A stretch of 37,662 nucleotides of DNA from assembly GCA_018816345.1 (NCBI GenBank), contig JAHIWG010000075.1, forward strand, positions 1 to 37,662, read 5' to 3'. The notes beneath the pieces are model-generated. The model had not been told where the DNA came from, did not search any database, and worked only from the letters and a program-made list of their open reading frames with translations. The stretch is from Spirochaetota bacterium. Its GTDB lineage: Bacteria; Spirochaetota; Spirochaetia; Treponematales; UBA12059. Below are positions 30,624 through 37,295 of the stretch, one piece after another. Positions within the stretch are counted from its first letter, which is position 1. Each line of letters starts with the position of its first letter. Made by a program: the position numbers and the translations under genes.

Positions 30624-31403
30624 CTACCTAGCGCATAGCATGCCGCCGTCTATGAACAGCGTCTCTCCGTGGACGTAGCTCGCCGCGTCGGAGCATAGGA
30701 AGAGGACCCCCGCCGCTATATCGTCGGGGACGCCGATGCGGCGCTTGGGTATCTTCTCCTCGAACTCCGCGGCGGACGCGGCGTCCCCGAGGAGGTTCCG
30801 CGTCAGGCCGGTGTGGACCATGCCCGGCCCGACGGCGTTGACGTTGATATTATATCCCGACAGGTCCACGGCCATGCCTTGGGTCATCATCTTGGCCGCG
30901 CCCTTGGAGGTGTTATAGACGCTCTGTCCCTGCCCCGCTATCACCGACATTATAGACGTGATATTGACGATGCGGCCGTAGTCGCGGTCCATCATCGAAG
31001 GCAATACGGCTCGCGAGAAGTTGAAGATCGAGCGCACGTTTATGTCCATGACGCGGTCGTACTCGTCGTCCTCCATCATCGCGAACGGCTGGAACTGCCC
31101 TGTTCCCGCGTTGTTGACGAGGATGTCGATCGGCCCCAGGGCCGCGGCCGCGGCCTCGACGAAGGCGAAGGCCTCGGCCTTCTTCGAGACGTCCACCCTG
31201 CCTAAGTGGCATCGGCGGCCCAGCGCCGTTATCTCGGCGGAGAGCGCGCGGAGCCCGCCTTCGTTTATATCGCATATCGCCAGGTCCGCGCCCTCCACGG
31301 CGAAGCCGAGCGCCGTCGCCCGCCCAATGCCCGACGCGGCGCCGGTGACCATGGCGACTCGACCCTTGAACCTGTACGCCCTCTTCTCCTCGGCCTCGGT
31401 CAT
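30624..31403 (-). CDS. Short-chain dehydrogenase/reductase (FabG/hydroxysteroid dehydrogenase type)
   Basis: This 259-residue NAD(P)-dependent oxidoreductase has the cofactor motif TGAASGIG at about residue 20, an acidic residue in ICDINE (which favours NAD), NNAG at about residue 95, and the catalytic set Ser in ITSIMS, Tyr in VYNTSK and Lys in the same motif. The C-terminal ETLFIDGGM is classical. I start at the ATG at 31403 with AAAGGAGG upstream; the longer frame lies in the neighbouring gene. It overlaps that gene by four bases and is the last gene of the operon. It probably reduces or oxidises a hydroxyl or keto group of an acyl-CoA or lipid intermediate. Confidence 0.93.
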   Translation of the reverse strand: MTEAEEKRAYRFKGRVAMVTGAASGIGRATALGFAVEGADLAICDINEGGLRALSAEITALGRRCHLGRVDVSKKAEAFAFVEAAAAALGPIDILVNNAGTGQFQPFAMMEDDEYDRVMDINVRSIFNFSRAVLPSMMDRDYGRIVNITSIMSVIAGQGQSVYNTSKGAAKMMTQGMAVDLSGYNINVNAVGPGMVHTGLTRNLLGDAASAAEFEEKIPKRRIGVPDDIAAGVLFLCSDAASYVHGETLFIDGGMLCAR

Positions 31404-32176
31404 GCGACCCTCCTTTCCTTTCCTACGCCCTCGACAGCGCCTTTCCTGACGCGGTCCCAGACTATGATCGCGGCTCCCAGGAAGGCCGCCTGGGCAGTCA
31501 TGTTGACTGCCTGGTCGATCCAGTTCATGAGGATGCGGTTCTCGAAGCGCGCCTGCGTCGAAGGCGAGGCCAGCATGCCCATGAGCAGCATGGCGGCGAT
31601 GGAGGCGATCGATAGGACGCCGGCCGCGGTCGCGCGCTCCCTGAAGGAGAACCAGGCCAGGATGCCCATGGTCGAGAGCTGCAGGAGCACCATGGCGAGC
31701 ATCGAGTATCGCTTGAGCTCGAGGAAGTGCGCCTTGAGCCCGGGAGCCGGGCCGTTGACGGCCATGACCAGCGCGAACGCCAGGCCCAGGAAGACCCCGG
31801 CCGCGAAGGGCGAGACCCACGAGGCCGTCTCCGCGAAGCGGGTGCGTTCGCCGCGCCGGTCGCGGCCGCTGAACCGCCTGGCCCCGAGGACGACGGCGGC
31901 GGCCGTGGCGAGGAAGCCCACGGCCATCATCGGGAACATCTGGTCGTAGAGGAAGCCCGCCTCGGTGACCGGCCGCCTAGCCAGCGCGTCGCCTATCTTG
32001 GCCGACACCTTGAACGCGCCCGACAGGAACGCCAGGAGAGAGCCGGCCATGAACATGCCGGACAGCTCGCGCTCGCCCATGAGGCGCATGAAGCGGACGG
32101 TAAAGAACGAGGCGGCCAGGTACAGAAGGGGCGGCGCCGCGTCGCTGATCGCCATACCCAGGGTCACGGTTTCCAT
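31400..32176 (-). CDS. Unrecognised multi-pass membrane protein
   Basis: This 258-residue protein has about seven hydrophobic segments (for example PPLLYLAASFFTV, MFMAGSLLAFLSGAF, MFPMMAVGFLATAAAVVLGA, WVSPFAAGVFLGLAFALVMA, MLAMVLLQLSTMGILAWF) and no signal peptide. I start at the ATG at 32176 because GGAGG lies six bases before it; a TTG two codons upstream would sit directly on that site. It is coupled to the SDR gene by ATGA and follows the DUF35 gene after 19 bases. I do not recognise the family. In this operon it may anchor the enzymes or move a hydrophobic substrate, which is inference only. Confidence 0.82.
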   Translation of the reverse strand: METVTLGMAISDAAPPLLYLAASFFTVRFMRLMGERELSGMFMAGSLLAFLSGAFKVSAKIGDALARRPVTEAGFLYDQMFPMMAVGFLATAAAVVLGARRFSGRDRRGERTRFAETASWVSPFAAGVFLGLAFALVMAVNGPAPGLKAHFLELKRYSMLAMVLLQLSTMGILAWFSFRERATAAGVLSIASIAAMLLMGMLASPSTQARFENRILMNWIDQAVNMTAQAAFLGAAIIVWDRVRKGAVEGVGKERRVA

Positions 32177-32195
32177 CGGCAACCTCCTTCCGGGC

Positions 32196-32648
32196 TCAAT
32201 CCTCCCGATCCAGCACGAACCTGAATCCGTAGACCCAGGCTCCCGTATCCTCCCTGCGATGCTTCCGGAGCACGGCCCTTACCCTGAGCCCGGCTCCTAC
32301 CACCTCGCCCGGGCCGATGTCGACGACGTCTCCCAGGACGTGTATCCCGTCGTCGAGCTTGACGACCACCATGCGCCTCGGGAGGTCGTCGCCGTAGCCC
32401 CAGGCCGGGAAGCCGAGGTCGTCCAGGACGCAGGCCACGACCGCGCCCGAGTCGGCGCACCGGTAGGGCTCCATCGCGCGCTCCAGGCAGGCCGGGCAGA
32501 GGAGCCCCGCGCGGGGCGGGAAGTACCGCTCGCCGCAGGCCCCGCAGCGGGAGCCCTCGATAAGGTAGCGCCCGCGCTTGCCGCGGTACCATACCGCGCT
32601 CGAGAAGGTATCGACGCGGACTATAGGCTCGGGGAATTCTCGGCTCAT
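32196..32648 (-). CDS. DUF35 zinc-ribbon/OB-fold protein, partner of thiolase
   Basis: This 150-residue protein has an N-terminal rubredoxin-like zinc ribbon (Cys35, Cys38, Cys51, Cys54: CGAC...CPAC) and a C-terminal OB fold (VVACVLDDLGFPAWGYGDDL, then VLGDVVDIGPGEVV). DUF35 proteins bind CoA esters and sit next to thiolase-like enzymes, as in the archaeal thiolase/HMG-CoA-synthase complex, ChsH2 and BbsA. Its ATG is one base after the thiolase stop, which indicates tight coupling. It likely bridges the thiolase and the HMG-CoA-synthase-like protein. Confidence 0.92.
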   Translation of the reverse strand: MSREFPEPIVRVDTFSSAVWYRGKRGRYLIEGSRCGACGERYFPPRAGLLCPACLERAMEPYRCADSGAVVACVLDDLGFPAWGYGDDLPRRMVVVKLDDGIHVLGDVVDIGPGEVVGAGLRVRAVLRKHRREDTGAWVYGFRFVLDRED

Positions 32649-32649
32649 G

Positions 32650-33843
32650 TCACCACCTCCTCTGCACGACGCCGGCCACGTCGAGCGAGTGGTGCGTGCC
32701 GTAGGACGAGTTGACGCCGACGCGCGCGCCGTCCACCTGACGCTCCCCGCACTCGCCGCGGAGCTGGTAGAAATTCTCGATGACGCCGGCCTGGAAGTCG
32801 CAGCCCACGGAGCCGTGCCCGAAGGCGGGGCCGCCGCCGTAGGTATTAACCGGGCAGCGCGAGCCCAGGGCCATGCCGCCCGAGCGAACGTACTCCGCGC
32901 CGCCGCCTAGCGGAGCGAGGCCGAGGGCCTCGACGGCCATCAGCCCCTCGAAGGCGGTCAGGTCGTGGACCTGGCAGACCTGGGCGTCGGCCGGCGATAT
33001 ACCCGCCATGGCGTAGGCCTCCTTGGCGGCGACCATCAGCCCGGAGAACTCGGCCATGCCGTAGCCCCGCAGGCCGTCTACGGGCCAGTCGTTGAAATTG
33101 CCCATGTACGGCGGCCTATAGGCGTAAGCCACGTCGAACTGGGCGGGCCTGTCCGTGTAACGAGCCGCCACGTCCTCGCCGCACAGCACGAACGCGCTCG
33201 AGACGCCGCCGCGGTTGGTCGCCTGGCGGGAACGGTCGGCCTCGGGCGTATCGGCGGACAGCTCCTCGAGGCTGGGCATGGGCTTTCCGTACTCGGCGGC
33301 CAGGGGGTTCCGCCGGGCGTACCAGTGGCACTGGTGCACCCAGGCCGCGGCGTCCTCGATCGTCGCGCCGTACTTGCGCCGGTAGTAGTCGTCCCTGAGG
33401 CCGCCGTAGTTTATGTGCGTCAGTCCCATCAGGTAATCGTAGTCGCAGTAGTTGCCCTCGCTATTCATGGCCTCCATCGCGTCGAAGTTATCGGAACGGG
33501 CGAAGCCCAGCGACACGACGAGGTCGTACCTGCCGCTCGCGATGGCGTTCCACGCCGCCCAGCTTGCGACGCCGTTCCCGGCGCAGGCGCTGGAGCAGAC
33601 GAGCACCGGCTTAGGCGCCAGCGCCAGCGCGTCCGCTACCTGAGGCCCCACCGACGAGTCGATGATGGTCCTATCGTTATACGCCACGCAGGCGAGGTCC
33701 ACGTCCTTCGGCCTTACCCCGGCCGCCTCCAGGGCCAGGCAATACGCCTCGGTAGCGAGCCGCCTCCACGTCCAGTCCATCGGGACGCTCGGGGGCGTGA
33801 CCGCGCCGCCGAGCATCATCACCCTTCGTTTGATGGCGCCCAT
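32650..33843 (-). CDS. Thiolase, SCP-x/acetyl-CoA acetyltransferase-like type
   Basis: This 397-residue thiolase-fold enzyme keeps the key residues: nucleophile Cys87 (SSACAGNG), VHDLTAFEG with His293, NTYGG at 333-337 and His343 in FGHGSVG. It is the SCP-x class that works with a DUF35 subunit, not the classic FadA/PhaA class. I start at the ATG at 33843, with AAGGAG six bases before it; a longer frame in phase is antisense-like sequence in the upstream gene. It lies 14 bases after the HMG-CoA-synthase-like gene and one base before DUF35. It should cleave or condense a beta-keto acyl-CoA. The direction and chain cannot be read from sequence. Confidence 0.92.
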   Translation of the reverse strand: MGAIKRRVMMLGGAVTPPSVPMDWTWRRLATEAYCLALEAAGVRPKDVDLACVAYNDRTIIDSSVGPQVADALALAPKPVLVCSSACAGNGVASWAAWNAIASGRYDLVVSLGFARSDNFDAMEAMNSEGNYCDYDYLMGLTHINYGGLRDDYYRRKYGATIEDAAAWVHQCHWYARRNPLAAEYGKPMPSLEELSADTPEADRSRQATNRGGVSSAFVLCGEDVAARYTDRPAQFDVAYAYRPPYMGNFNDWPVDGLRGYGMAEFSGLMVAAKEAYAMAGISPADAQVCQVHDLTAFEGLMAVEALGLAPLGGGAEYVRSGGMALGSRCPVNTYGGGPAFGHGSVGCDFQAGVIENFYQLRGECGERQVDGARVGVNSSYGTHHSLDVAGVVQRRW

Positions 33844-33857
33844 CGCATTCTCCTTTT

Positions 33858-34934
33858 TTAGTAGAAGTTGGAGAGCTGGCCCGACGGCCGGATTAGCTTC
33901 TGCTCCAGCTTGAGCATGGTCGCGTAGTCGACCATCACCTTGTCGTCTATCTGGGACAGGACCGTGTCCCGCCCCGTCCTGGCACCGGCGAGCGCCTCGG
34001 TGGTCCGGAGCGACCAGACGTCGCAGCCGGCGCCCGAACCGTAGTCCACGACGCCGACCAGCTCGCCTGGATCGGCCCAGTCCAGGATATGGGCCAGCGC
34101 TATAGGCGACTGGGCGGCGCCGGCGTCGCCTATCATCTGGGTGAGCACGTAGGGGAGCACCTGCATCATATCGAGCCCGCACTTGCCCAGCGTCATCAGG
34201 GCGCGGAGGCCGGTCTTCTGCGGGACGACAATCTTGGAGTAATCCGCCGGCGCCGTGCCCGTATCCTCGAAGTAGCCGGCCACCGCGGGCACGACGTGGT
34301 CCAGGAGGCCCCAGCTGGCGACCCAGCCGTAGAAGCCGGCGCCCGACTGGACGAAGCGCTCGCCCTCGACACGGAAATAGTCGTTCTGGTCCCAGGAGTG
34401 CGTCCTCCACGGGCCCAGCTCCGCGAGGCCCGCCTCCTTTCCGACGAGGAAGGCCGCGGCCCCCGCGCTCGCGACGTACTCGACGACCTGGCCGGGCGCC
34501 GTGTGCCGGTTGGGCGTATCGGCCGCGACGACCAGCGCCCGCTCGACCGCGCCCGACTCCACGAGGCCGCGCGCTAGGGCGAGCGCCGCCGAGCCCGAGC
34601 GCTCCGCGCACTGCACGTCGCAGGCCAGGGCCGAGGCCGGCAGGTCCAGCGCGTCCTTGAGCACGTCGGCGGCGGCCTTGGTCGCGTACGGCGACGTGCC
34701 CGTGCCCAGGAGCACCGCGCCGATTCCCGAGCCGCCGCCCGCCCGCTCGAGGCATAGCCTAGCGGCGGCGACGGCGAGGGTGAGGGTGTCCTCGTCGGGC
34801 CCGAGCACGCAGCGTTCCCCGATCGACAGCGTATCGAGGAACGATTCCGCCAGGTTGCCCCAGACGGCCCGTATGGCCGTGCCGGCTATGCGCCTCCTGG
34901 GGATGGCCGTCCCGTAGGCTAGTATGCCGCCCAC
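33858..34934 (-). CDS. Archaeal-type HMG-CoA-synthase homologue lacking catalytic residues
   Basis: This 358-residue protein has a thiolase-like condensing-enzyme fold. Stretches EYVASAGAAAFLVGKE (152-167) and VVDYGSGAGCDVWSL (295-309) match archaeal-type HMG-CoA synthases well. Against the consensus I recall, catalytic Glu falls on Gly79, the nucleophile Cys on Glu111 (CAERSG; the nearest Cys is 109), the His of FHQPN on Pro238 (VPQKTG) and the Asn of GNTYSG on Asp270 (GDAGAA). The start is GTG at 34934, seven bases after the SCP2 stop. It precedes thiolase and DUF35 in the archaeal gene order. It is probably a scaffold or a divergent condensing enzyme, not a mevalonate-pathway enzyme. Confidence 0.85.
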   Translation of the reverse strand: MGGILAYGTAIPRRRIAGTAIRAVWGNLAESFLDTLSIGERCVLGPDEDTLTLAVAAARLCLERAGGGSGIGAVLLGTGTSPYATKAAADVLKDALDLPASALACDVQCAERSGSAALALARGLVESGAVERALVVAADTPNRHTAPGQVVEYVASAGAAAFLVGKEAGLAELGPWRTHSWDQNDYFRVEGERFVQSGAGFYGWVASWGLLDHVVPAVAGYFEDTGTAPADYSKIVVPQKTGLRALMTLGKCGLDMMQVLPYVLTQMIGDAGAAQSPIALAHILDWADPGELVGVVDYGSGAGCDVWSLRTTEALAGARTGRDTVLSQIDDKVMVDYATMLKLEQKLIRPSGQLSNFY

Positions 34935-34941
34935 GGTCTGC

Positions 34942-35274
34942 CTAGGCCTTCTTGGGGATGTTCCAGAGCCCCGAGAACGCTATGGCGTCCATCATCGGCC
35001 CCTTCATCCGCAGCAGCTTGGCGTTGACGAGCTTCATAGGCGGGGTCTCGCCGGTGAACATCTGGCAGATATACTCGGAGTTGCCGGATATCGTGAGCTT
35101 CGGCTCGGAGGCCTGGCCCTCGGAGACCGCGCATGCTCCGTCGTTAATGGTAAGCGTCCACTTGCTCGGTTCCTCGCCCTGCAGGTCCAAGAGAATGACG
35201 CGGTTCCAGCCCTTGGCCTTCTCCGGCTTGAATAGCGCGGGCAGTGATTTGACGACTTCCTCGATCCTTGCCAT
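34942..35274 (-). CDS. SCP2 sterol-binding domain protein
   Basis: This 110-residue protein is a stand-alone SCP2 domain: WTLTINDGACAVSEGQASEP, KLTISGNSEYICQMFTGETP and a C-terminal LLRMKGPMMDAIAFSGLW. The fold forms a hydrophobic tunnel that binds sterols, fatty acids or acyl-CoA. AAGGAG lies before the ATG at 35274. It sits directly before the condensing-enzyme homologue and thiolase, which hints that the pathway substrate is hydrophobic. No membrane segment or signal peptide is seen, so it should be cytoplasmic. Confidence 0.92.
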   Translation of the reverse strand: MARIEEVVKSLPALFKPEKAKGWNRVILLDLQGEEPSKWTLTINDGACAVSEGQASEPKLTISGNSEYICQMFTGETPPMKLVNAKLLRMKGPMMDAIAFSGLWNIPKKA

Positions 35275-35339: not shown

Positions 35340-36395
35340 CTAGTCCGCGGCGCCGAAGACCCTCTCCTGCACCGCCAGGATGCGCGGCATATCGTCGGCC
35401 GGGCTCGTCCGCAGCTCGAAGCGGCACGGCTCCCCGTGGAGGCCCAGCGAGCGCAGGAGGCGGTAGCCGGGCGAGACCATGGGCGGCATGGTTATCATCA
35501 TCGTCGCCAGGCCGTGGGCCTCGCAGTACCGGCAGAACGCGTAGCCCAGCGATCTCGGCGGCAGCCCTTCCCACGCCTCGACCGCGGCGTATACGCCCGC
35601 GAGCTCGCAATTCTCCAGCACGCTCGTACGCAGCGTCGCCTCCCCGTCCTGGACCTCGGGCTCCGAGTGGAAGTACTGGTCGGCGTACATGCCGCGCAGG
35701 CCGAGCTCCATCAGGTCGCCTATGTCCTCGAAGCCGGCCTTAGGCAGGGCCGTCGCGAAGAAGGCGCGGGAGACGTCCCACATGAAGTCCTCGCTCGTCG
35801 CGTCGACGGCGGCCCTGAGTGCGACGGGGCCGTCACGCTTGAGGACGGCGGCGGCGGCCGTCGCGCCGGCGACGAGGTAGCGGTTATAGTCGGCCACGCT
35901 CCGTAGGCATATCGCCAGCCACTCGTCGAGCAGGCCGCGGGGGAAGTCGCCGGCCGCGACGGCCGCCTCCCCACGGCGCTGGAGCCCGGACATTGTCGAG
36001 GCCCAGTCGTCCGGCATCCCTATCGACGCGGCCGACAGCCGGGCGACCAGTGGCCCGACGCCCTCGCCCATGCGCCCGGCCAGCTCGGCCATGTCCGCCA
36101 GGAAGCGACCGAAATACTCCGTCGCCTTCCTGGCGACCTCCGGGTCGCCGGAGAGCGACTGCCCATCCAGCCAGTCGGGATGCCCCGCGCCGCGGAGGAA
36201 GGTGGAGAGGCGGAGCGGCATCTCGTGCTCCACGCTGGCCCAGTACGCGCCCATCACCCTGAGGCCCGGGAAGTAGTCCCGCTCGGCGACCTGATCTCCG
36301 CGATAGAGCTTCTCGTACTCGCCCCGCTTCCAGTACCCGAGCGCGAGCTCGACGTTCCTGGCCCATTTATGGTCGTGGAACTCGCTGTAGTTCAT
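35340..36395 (-). CDS. Cysteine-containing protein, possibly ATC-hydrolase-like
   Basis: This 351-residue soluble protein has no signal peptide. The C-terminal 120 residues hold a pattern of cysteines: VLENCELAG, AFCRYCEAHG, then SPGYRLLRSLGLHGEPCRFEL. The spacing and the final Gly-x-x-Cys-x-Phe recall the L-2-amino-thiazoline-4-carboxylic-acid hydrolase family, in which similar C-termini occur. That match is from memory and weak. The N-terminal 200 residues are mainly helical and unassigned. The ATG at 36395 follows a GGGGGAG site and overlaps the stop of the small membrane protein gene (ATGA). It is probably an enzyme of the operon, but no reaction can be given. Confidence 0.8.
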   Translation of the reverse strand: MNYSEFHDHKWARNVELALGYWKRGEYEKLYRGDQVAERDYFPGLRVMGAYWASVEHEMPLRLSTFLRGAGHPDWLDGQSLSGDPEVARKATEYFGRFLADMAELAGRMGEGVGPLVARLSAASIGMPDDWASTMSGLQRRGEAAVAAGDFPRGLLDEWLAICLRSVADYNRYLVAGATAAAAVLKRDGPVALRAAVDATSEDFMWDVSRAFFATALPKAGFEDIGDLMELGLRGMYADQYFHSEPEVQDGEATLRTSVLENCELAGVYAAVEAWEGLPPRSLGYAFCRYCEAHGLATMMITMPPMVSPGYRLLRSLGLHGEPCRFELRTSPADDMPRILAVQERVFGAAD

Positions 36396-36724: not shown

Positions 36725-37267
36725 TCACCGCGTTACCTCGGGAATCTCGAACAAGTCCACCCACGGCGCGTCTAGCGAGAAGCGCACGTAGCTGAAGCAG
36801 GCCAGGGCCGCCAGCGCGAAGGCGTACGCCTTCAGGCGGGCCGACATGGGGCGGGAACCTATATGGTCCTCGATATCGAGCGTGAACAGCGAGGCCGCGA
36901 ATATCACGACGTTAGCCCAGACGATCTCGGCCAGGTCGGTCGGCATGGGCCCCGCAACCGCGGCCGCCAGGTACCAGATGCCGGCGAACAAAGGCGGTAT
37001 GAAGGCCGCCCCGAGGAGCCTGCTCGCGGCGAAGTCGAGCGCCGGCCCGGGCCTCAGAGCTACCCATTCCAGCGCCGAGACGACGAGCCATGAGAAGTAC
37101 CCGACCTTCATGTGCTGGAAGACAGACTCGTCGATGCCGCTGAACACGGCGGTGAACCCGCCGGGCCACCAGTCGTAGGCGAAGTGCAGCACCAGGAAAA
37201 CGGCTTGAAAGGCGAGAGCCCTCCCGACGAGGAGCAGTAGCCCGCGGCGCGCGTCGACGGAAACCAT
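36725..37267 (-). CDS. Multi-pass membrane protein, possibly DUF6512-like
   Basis: This 180-residue membrane protein is the first gene of the operon. It has about five hydrophobic segments (for example GLLLLVGRALAFQAVFLVLH, LLGAAFIPPLFAGIWYLAAA, AEIVWANVVIFAASLFTL). The stretch GIDESVFQHMKVGYFSWLVV recalls the ESVWEH(L/M)K pattern of a family I remember as DUF6512; this is tentative. I start at the ATG at 37267, after GGAGG; the frame is open upstream, but that part crosses the operator. Function unknown. Confidence 0.82.
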   Translation of the reverse strand: MVSVDARRGLLLLVGRALAFQAVFLVLHFAYDWWPGGFTAVFSGIDESVFQHMKVGYFSWLVVSALEWVALRPGPALDFAASRLLGAAFIPPLFAGIWYLAAAVAGPMPTDLAEIVWANVVIFAASLFTLDIEDHIGSRPMSARLKAYAFALAALACFSYVRFSLDAPWVDLFEIPEVTR

Positions 37268-37295
37268 ATCCTGCCTCCATACCGATCTTGCTTTT

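Follow-up and report, generated by a model that had tools for sequence, protein, structure and literature searches.

A PhlACB/MucABC-like gene trio with a putatively non-catalytic HMG-CoA-synthase-like subunit in Spirochaetota and Anaerolineae

Introduction

C-acylating enzymes that work independently of activated donors are rare and are sought as biocatalysts. The Friedel–Crafts acyltransferase of 2,4-diacetylphloroglucinol (DAPG) biosynthesis in Pseudomonas and Chromobacterium (PpATase/CsATase, PhlACB; PDB 5M3K, 5MG5 and 9SKH) consists of an HMG-CoA-synthase-like protein, a thiolase and a zinc-ribbon protein, encoded in the order phlA-phlC-phlB. The complex type is defined by an (A2C2)2B4 assembly that acylates carbon independently of CoA. 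PhlA lacks the Cys and Glu of HMG-CoA synthase, carrying Gly115 and Cys83 instead, and PpATase is reported to be without the residues that bind CoA in the fused site. The substrate is contacted only by PhlC residues, and PhlC alone is catalytic; activity requires co-expression of all three subunits, and the N-terminal tail of PhlB is buried against PhlA and PhlC. Mutant analysis has shown that PhlC His56 is essential, while Asn87 and Tyr298 are needed for normal activity (PMC6392133).

A similar HMG-CoA-synthase-like/thiolase/zinc-ribbon trio is MucABC of Streptococcus macacae (9VBO/9VBT), which belongs to the biosynthesis of a 3-acetylated tetramate in an NRPS/PKS context; tetramate acetylation is ascribed to mucA-C (PMC10161427). 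An NRPS cluster on a Priestia megaterium plasmid (CP109765.1) is counted with the MucABC type; its trio (locus L055, 7992-10770) adjoins NRPS genes, and it probably belongs to the muc-like type IV clusters of PMC10161427. A homologue of PhlACB from Thermofilum, with a PhlC identity of only 30%, gave no resorcinol formylation when tested (PMC12955522), so similarity leaves the substrate of such complexes unfixed.

Two further systems share these components. The archaeal thiolase/HMG-CoA synthase/DUF35 complex serves the mevalonate pathway; its HMG-CoA synthase retains all four catalytic residues, and its DUF35 protein has no N-terminal tail. In Pseudomonadota and other Spirochaetota, an HMG-CoA-synthase-like domain and a DUF35 domain are fused into a single polypeptide with a thiolase partner, in a beta-oxidation-like context where annotated. 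Here we compare these systems with a locus from a Spirochaetota genome.

Layout of the cassette

The window, that is, the whole analysed stretch of 37,662 nucleotides of contig JAHIWG010000075.1, contains six to eight tightly packed minus-strand genes between about 37.3 and 30.6 kb:

36725-37270, minus strand: small membrane protein, start uncertain, 40% identity to the DUF6512 protein of a Chloroflexi cassette
35340-36395, minus strand: ORF351, a constant cassette gene without a Pfam family
34942-35274, minus strand: 110-aa protein with an SCP2-type lipid/sterol carrier domain, a constant cassette gene
33858-34934, minus strand: HMG-CoA-synthase-like, PhlA-type A subunit, 358 aa, GTG start; codons of Gly79 at 34698-34700, Glu111 at 34602-34604, Pro238 at 34221-34223 and Asp270 at 34125-34127
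32650-33843, minus strand: PhlC-type thiolase (C subunit), 397 aa, with Cys87, His143, His293, His343, Ser345 and Asp349
32196-32648, minus strand: DUF35/PhlB-type zinc-ribbon OB-fold protein (B subunit), 150 aa, with Cys35, Cys38, Cys51 and Cys54
31400-32182, minus strand: membrane protein by prediction, 260 aa, found in the majority of sampled cassettes
30624-31403, minus strand: FabG/BudC-like SDR oxidoreductase, a constant cassette gene whose ATG, by inspection, overlaps the stop codon of the preceding gene

The cassette comprises ORF351, the SCP2 protein, the A, C and B subunits, usually the membrane protein, and the SDR. No type III PKS or NRPS gene is found in it, unlike in the phl or muc clusters, and compared with PhlACB it adds SCP2, SDR, ORF351 and membrane proteins. 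The A, C and B genes follow one another on one strand. The original prediction had equated this set and order with the archaeal complex; the match is correct, but it applies equally to phlA-phlC-phlB, to which the window proteins are nearer by sequence. In searches of PDB sequences, the nearest solved relatives of the three proteins are PhlA, PhlC and PhlB (E values of about 1e-60, 6e-53 and 9e-31), and the archaeal complex comes second for each of them (3e-52, 4e-22 and 1e-8).

Searches of ORF351 against Pfam, NCBIfam and PDB sequences gave nothing useful. Its AlphaFold2 (AF2) model (pLDDT 69) bears a weak, non-significant resemblance to V4R/H-NOX/Bet3 (TRAPP-like) ligand-binding folds, and naming the protein after such a fold was dropped because the matches are too weak. 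A C-terminal CxYCxxH...C.F pattern is common to six of its homologues.

The HMG-CoA-synthase-like subunit

The A subunit is homologous to archaeal-type HMG-CoA synthase over its full length, as had been proposed from the sequence (phmmer against 6esq_I, E 3e-52, residues 3-346); the identity is about 31–32% in structural alignment. In a MAFFT alignment of 32 sequences, the catalytic Glu, Cys, His and Asn of 6ESQ correspond to Gly79, Glu111, Pro238 and Asp270, exactly the substitutions read beforehand. The best matches to the AF2 model (mean pLDDT 62, moderate) are PhlA (Z 29.1) and 6ESQ (Z 28.2), the two being tied. In a maximum-likelihood tree, the PhlA/MucA-type proteins fall together with the window clade and a clade of paralogues (support 93/89), 9vbo_A forming a long branch; this combined group lies beside the true HMG-CoA synthases but separate from them, and the fused proteins form a clade of their own.

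The search for homologues with the same substitutions beside a thiolase and a DUF35 protein, suggested together with the original prediction, recovered a clade in Spirochaetota and Anaerolineae. Its eight aligned members (three from Spirochaetota, five from Chloroflexi) all have Pro at position 238 and Asp at 270, position 111 is Glu or Asp in every one, and position 79 is Gly, Ala or Cys. The reading frame is intact, and a dN/dS of about 0.12 indicates purifying selection. In close comparisons with loci L024 and L025, the values are 0.12–0.14 for the A subunit versus 0.10–0.11 for the thiolase, and those of all genes are well below 1. Selection on the A subunit is thus about as strong as on its thiolase neighbour, and the loss of the catalytic residues is real, old and tolerated. 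A decaying pseudogene is ruled out by the open frame, the conserved synteny and the dN/dS. The HMG-CoA-synthase-like proteins of L024 (3475-4620) and L025 (1214-2380) carry Ala/Gly-rich insertions of about 24–31 residues after residue 66, which are absent from the window and Chloroflexi copies.

One alternative is that the subunit now has a catalytic function of a new kind: Glu/Asp111 at the nucleophile position, perhaps together with Cys109, would act on the substrate. The acidic residue and Cys109 are both present in all eight sampled clade members from two phyla, and Glu is also found at 111 in the MucA-type chain of 9VBO. We nevertheless consider such a role very unlikely: position 79 drifts, Pro occupies the place of the catalytic His, and PhlA, the best-studied homologue, is non-catalytic (PMC6392133). 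Moreover, beside the same partners, position 111 is Gly or Ala and position 109 is Phe in the paralogues and in PhlA. Cys109 lies two residues upstream of the nucleophile position in an ungapped stretch, where 6ESQ has Phe, and outside the window's own clade it is not conserved; for these reasons it was rejected as a replacement nucleophile in the main reading. The new condensing chemistry once suggested for the A subunit likewise finds no positive evidence. In a broader version, the acidic residue 111 and Cys109 would be catalytic or steer the substrate; the complex would then perform a C-acylation or C–C cleavage new relative to PhlACB, and the SCP2 protein and ORF351 would supply it with a lipid-like or aromatic substrate. 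This version appears improbable as well.

The thiolase and DUF35 partners

The thiolase was originally credited with an intact active site. This holds for Cys87, His293 (in an HDxxxxE motif) and His343 (in a GH motif), but the second Cys of the thiolase HDCF motif is gone (the motif reads HDLT) and several positions are PhlC-like. Cys87, His143 and His343 correspond to PhlC Cys88, His144 and His347 in the MAFFT alignment. Ser345 and Asp349 correspond to PhlC Ser349 and Asp352 in the phmmer alignment, MAFFT having placed Ser349 one column off. The essential PhlC His56 is replaced by Asn56 in the phmmer alignment, or faces a gap, and this segment has no His at all; Asn87 is replaced by Ala86, and Tyr298 by His293, the residue that ordinary thiolases use. 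Judged by these residues, the active site is a hybrid of the PhlC and ordinary-thiolase types. Because of Asn56, Ala86 and His293, the trio is classed as a variant within the complex type and not as a DAPG-type acyltransferase. It also differs from MucABC, whose thiolase has Tyr in place of His293 and whose A subunit is only about 25% identical, although in 9VBO, the structure titled MucABC acyltransferase complex, Glu likewise stands where the Cys used to be.

The DUF35 protein combines a Cys4 zinc ribbon with an extended N-terminal tail of the PhlB type. It also contains the PhlB GYG(D/E)xxPR loop, whereas archaeal-type DUF35 proteins have neither the loop nor the tail.

Distribution and host pathways

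The cassette occurs in the window's genome, in two other Spirochaetota MAGs and in Chloroflexi (Anaerolineae) MAGs, and the A-C-B order is retained in related loci. It is rare: a sample of 296 Spirochaetota genomes yielded it in the window's own alone, a second (G056) having been met in another search, and it is found in four of 298 genomes sampled from the Chloroflexi class. Window-type proteins share 62–72% identity between the phyla. The patchy occurrence and this identity suggest horizontal transfer of the cassette between phyla. The window's genome also holds a second, diverged set on contig C96, in the order ORF351-SDR-SCP2-A-C-B.

Anaerolineae cassettes and L025 include a conserved protein, about 450 aa long, that resembles ferrochelatase (Pfam PF00762, E 2e-8) and in which the motif HGHPFKKETQD is invariant:

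L026, 5506-6849: ferrochelatase-like gene
L027, 8993-10357: ferrochelatase-like gene
L028, 3552-4913: ferrochelatase-like gene
L066, 10944-12305: ferrochelatase-like gene
L025, 4950-6197: ferrochelatase-like gene

The window's genome has no match to this gene, which is therefore kept out of the proposed mechanism.

The host pathways bear on whether the trio could be a mevalonate-pathway complex of HMG-CoA synthase and thiolase whose active site is rearranged but working. The full-length homology is consistent with this, as is the match to the NCBIfam equivalog NF003274, 'hydroxymethylglutaryl-CoA synthase' (271.5 bits; cut-off 244), although the score for TIGR00748 falls below its cut-off. The gene order also equals that of true HMG-CoA-synthase/thiolase/DUF35 loci in Anaerolineae. 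Against this, all four catalytic residues are missing. The window's genome, 96% complete, contains IspG of the MEP pathway above the cut-off and only below-cut-off matches to mevalonate kinase, so the mevalonate setting of the archaeal complex is not found in this host and the trio is unlikely to serve that pathway. Anaerolineae with the window-type cassette also own a separate HMG-CoA synthase with Glu, Cys, His and Asn intact (L063-L065). The explanation is thus extremely improbable, a working mevalonate complex being effectively ruled out because the residues are absent and a MEP gene is present. In an Anaerolineae MAG, the reverse of the window case is seen: a thiolase with Gly for the nucleophile Cys and without the GH histidine (L064, 4702-5805; G333, contig C23) adjoins an HMG-CoA synthase whose four catalytic residues are all present. 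A further close thiolase, sharing 58% identity with the query, is encoded on contig C28 of the same MAG.

Fused relatives and a catabolic alternative

Fused HMG-CoA-synthase-like/DUF35 genes were found at the following loci:

L056, 8001-9473: fused HMG-CoA-synthase-like/DUF35 gene
L057, 5980-7440: fused HMG-CoA-synthase-like/DUF35 gene
L060, 5989-7428: fused HMG-CoA-synthase-like/DUF35 gene
L061, 5986-7437: fused HMG-CoA-synthase-like/DUF35 gene
L062, 5968-7434: fused HMG-CoA-synthase-like/DUF35 gene

These proteins, and those of the Spirochaetota loci L069-L072, lack the Glu, Cys and His; L056 retains the Asn. The genes adjoin SCP2-type thiolases and, in annotated plasmid clusters, have beta-oxidation-like neighbours.

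A catabolic explanation can be modelled on the proteobacterial clusters of this kind. The SDR would oxidise a beta-hydroxyacyl-CoA and the thiolase/DUF35 core would cleave the product with CoA, the A subunit being only structural; this proposal thus departs from the favoured direction and chemistry but leaves the A subunit its structural role. The thiolase-type His293 in place of PhlC Tyr298 and the adjacent SDR and SCP2 genes fit this proposal, and the fused relatives, which have also lost all or nearly all of the four catalytic residues, adjoin acyl-CoA dehydrogenase, MaoC, CoA transferase and SDR genes. The conserved cassette, however, contains no acyl-CoA dehydrogenase, hydratase or CoA ligase, the fused proteins belong to a different clade, and the window thiolase has no HDCF cysteine while retaining the PhlC-type His143, Ser345 and Asp349. 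Catabolic cleavage is therefore regarded as possible but rather unlikely.

Proposed function

The trio is probably a PhlACB/MucABC-like complex with a non-catalytic HMG-CoA-synthase-like subunit, whichever direction it works in. The homology, the gene order, the loss of four residues, the kept thiolase Cys and His, the PhlB-type tail, the synteny and the purifying selection are observed; complex formation, the division of labour and the acyl-enzyme chemistry are inferred by analogy with PhlACB.

Such a complex would perform a multi-subunit acyl transfer that forms or breaks a C–C bond. The thiolase would be the sole catalytic subunit: Cys87 would be acylated after activation by His343, with assistance from His143 and His293, and the acyl group would pass from Cys87 to (or from) a carbon nucleophile, as in PhlACB. 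With its zinc ribbon and N-terminal tail, the DUF35 protein would link the subunits. The role of the HMG-CoA-synthase-like protein would be structural: it would complete the complex and, with DUF35, wall the substrate cavity. C-acylation or Claisen-type condensation is the favoured direction, with the SDR acting on the ketone, while the SCP2 protein, and possibly ORF351, would hold a hydrophobic substrate. The SCP2 domain and the SDR suggest a hydrophobic ketone or hydroxyacyl compound.

Several observations count against this assignment of complex type: the cassette without PKS or NRPS, the pLDDT of only 62 for the A subunit, and the Thermofilum precedent. Since His56 has no counterpart and Tyr298 is replaced by His293, the chemistry may also be closer to that of an ordinary CoA-dependent thiolase. 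The channelling of a thiolase product, part of the original prediction, is not upheld: the archaeal channel feeds an active HMG-CoA synthase, and no second active site exists here. The idea of a pseudoenzyme scaffold beside a thiolase and a DUF35 protein is well supported, but it is not new, given PpATase (PhlACB), CsATase and MucABC.

Significance

A dead HMG-CoA-synthase-like subunit combined with a thiolase and a zinc ribbon is already known, and the main novelty claim thus has a published precedent. What is new is the cassette common to Spirochaetota and Anaerolineae, the paralogous copy in one genome and the hybrid thiolase active site; the literature searched does not report this lineage from Spirochaetota or Chloroflexi. 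Because NF003274 scores above its cut-off, automatic annotation would call the A subunit an HMG-CoA synthase. Pipelines can name such subunits 'hydroxymethylglutaryl-CoA synthase' despite the lost residues, which may lead to false mevalonate-pathway calls. In Spirochaetota and Chloroflexi, the trio would represent an uncharacterised lineage of PhlACB-type complexes that differs both in its active site and in its conserved gene neighbourhood.
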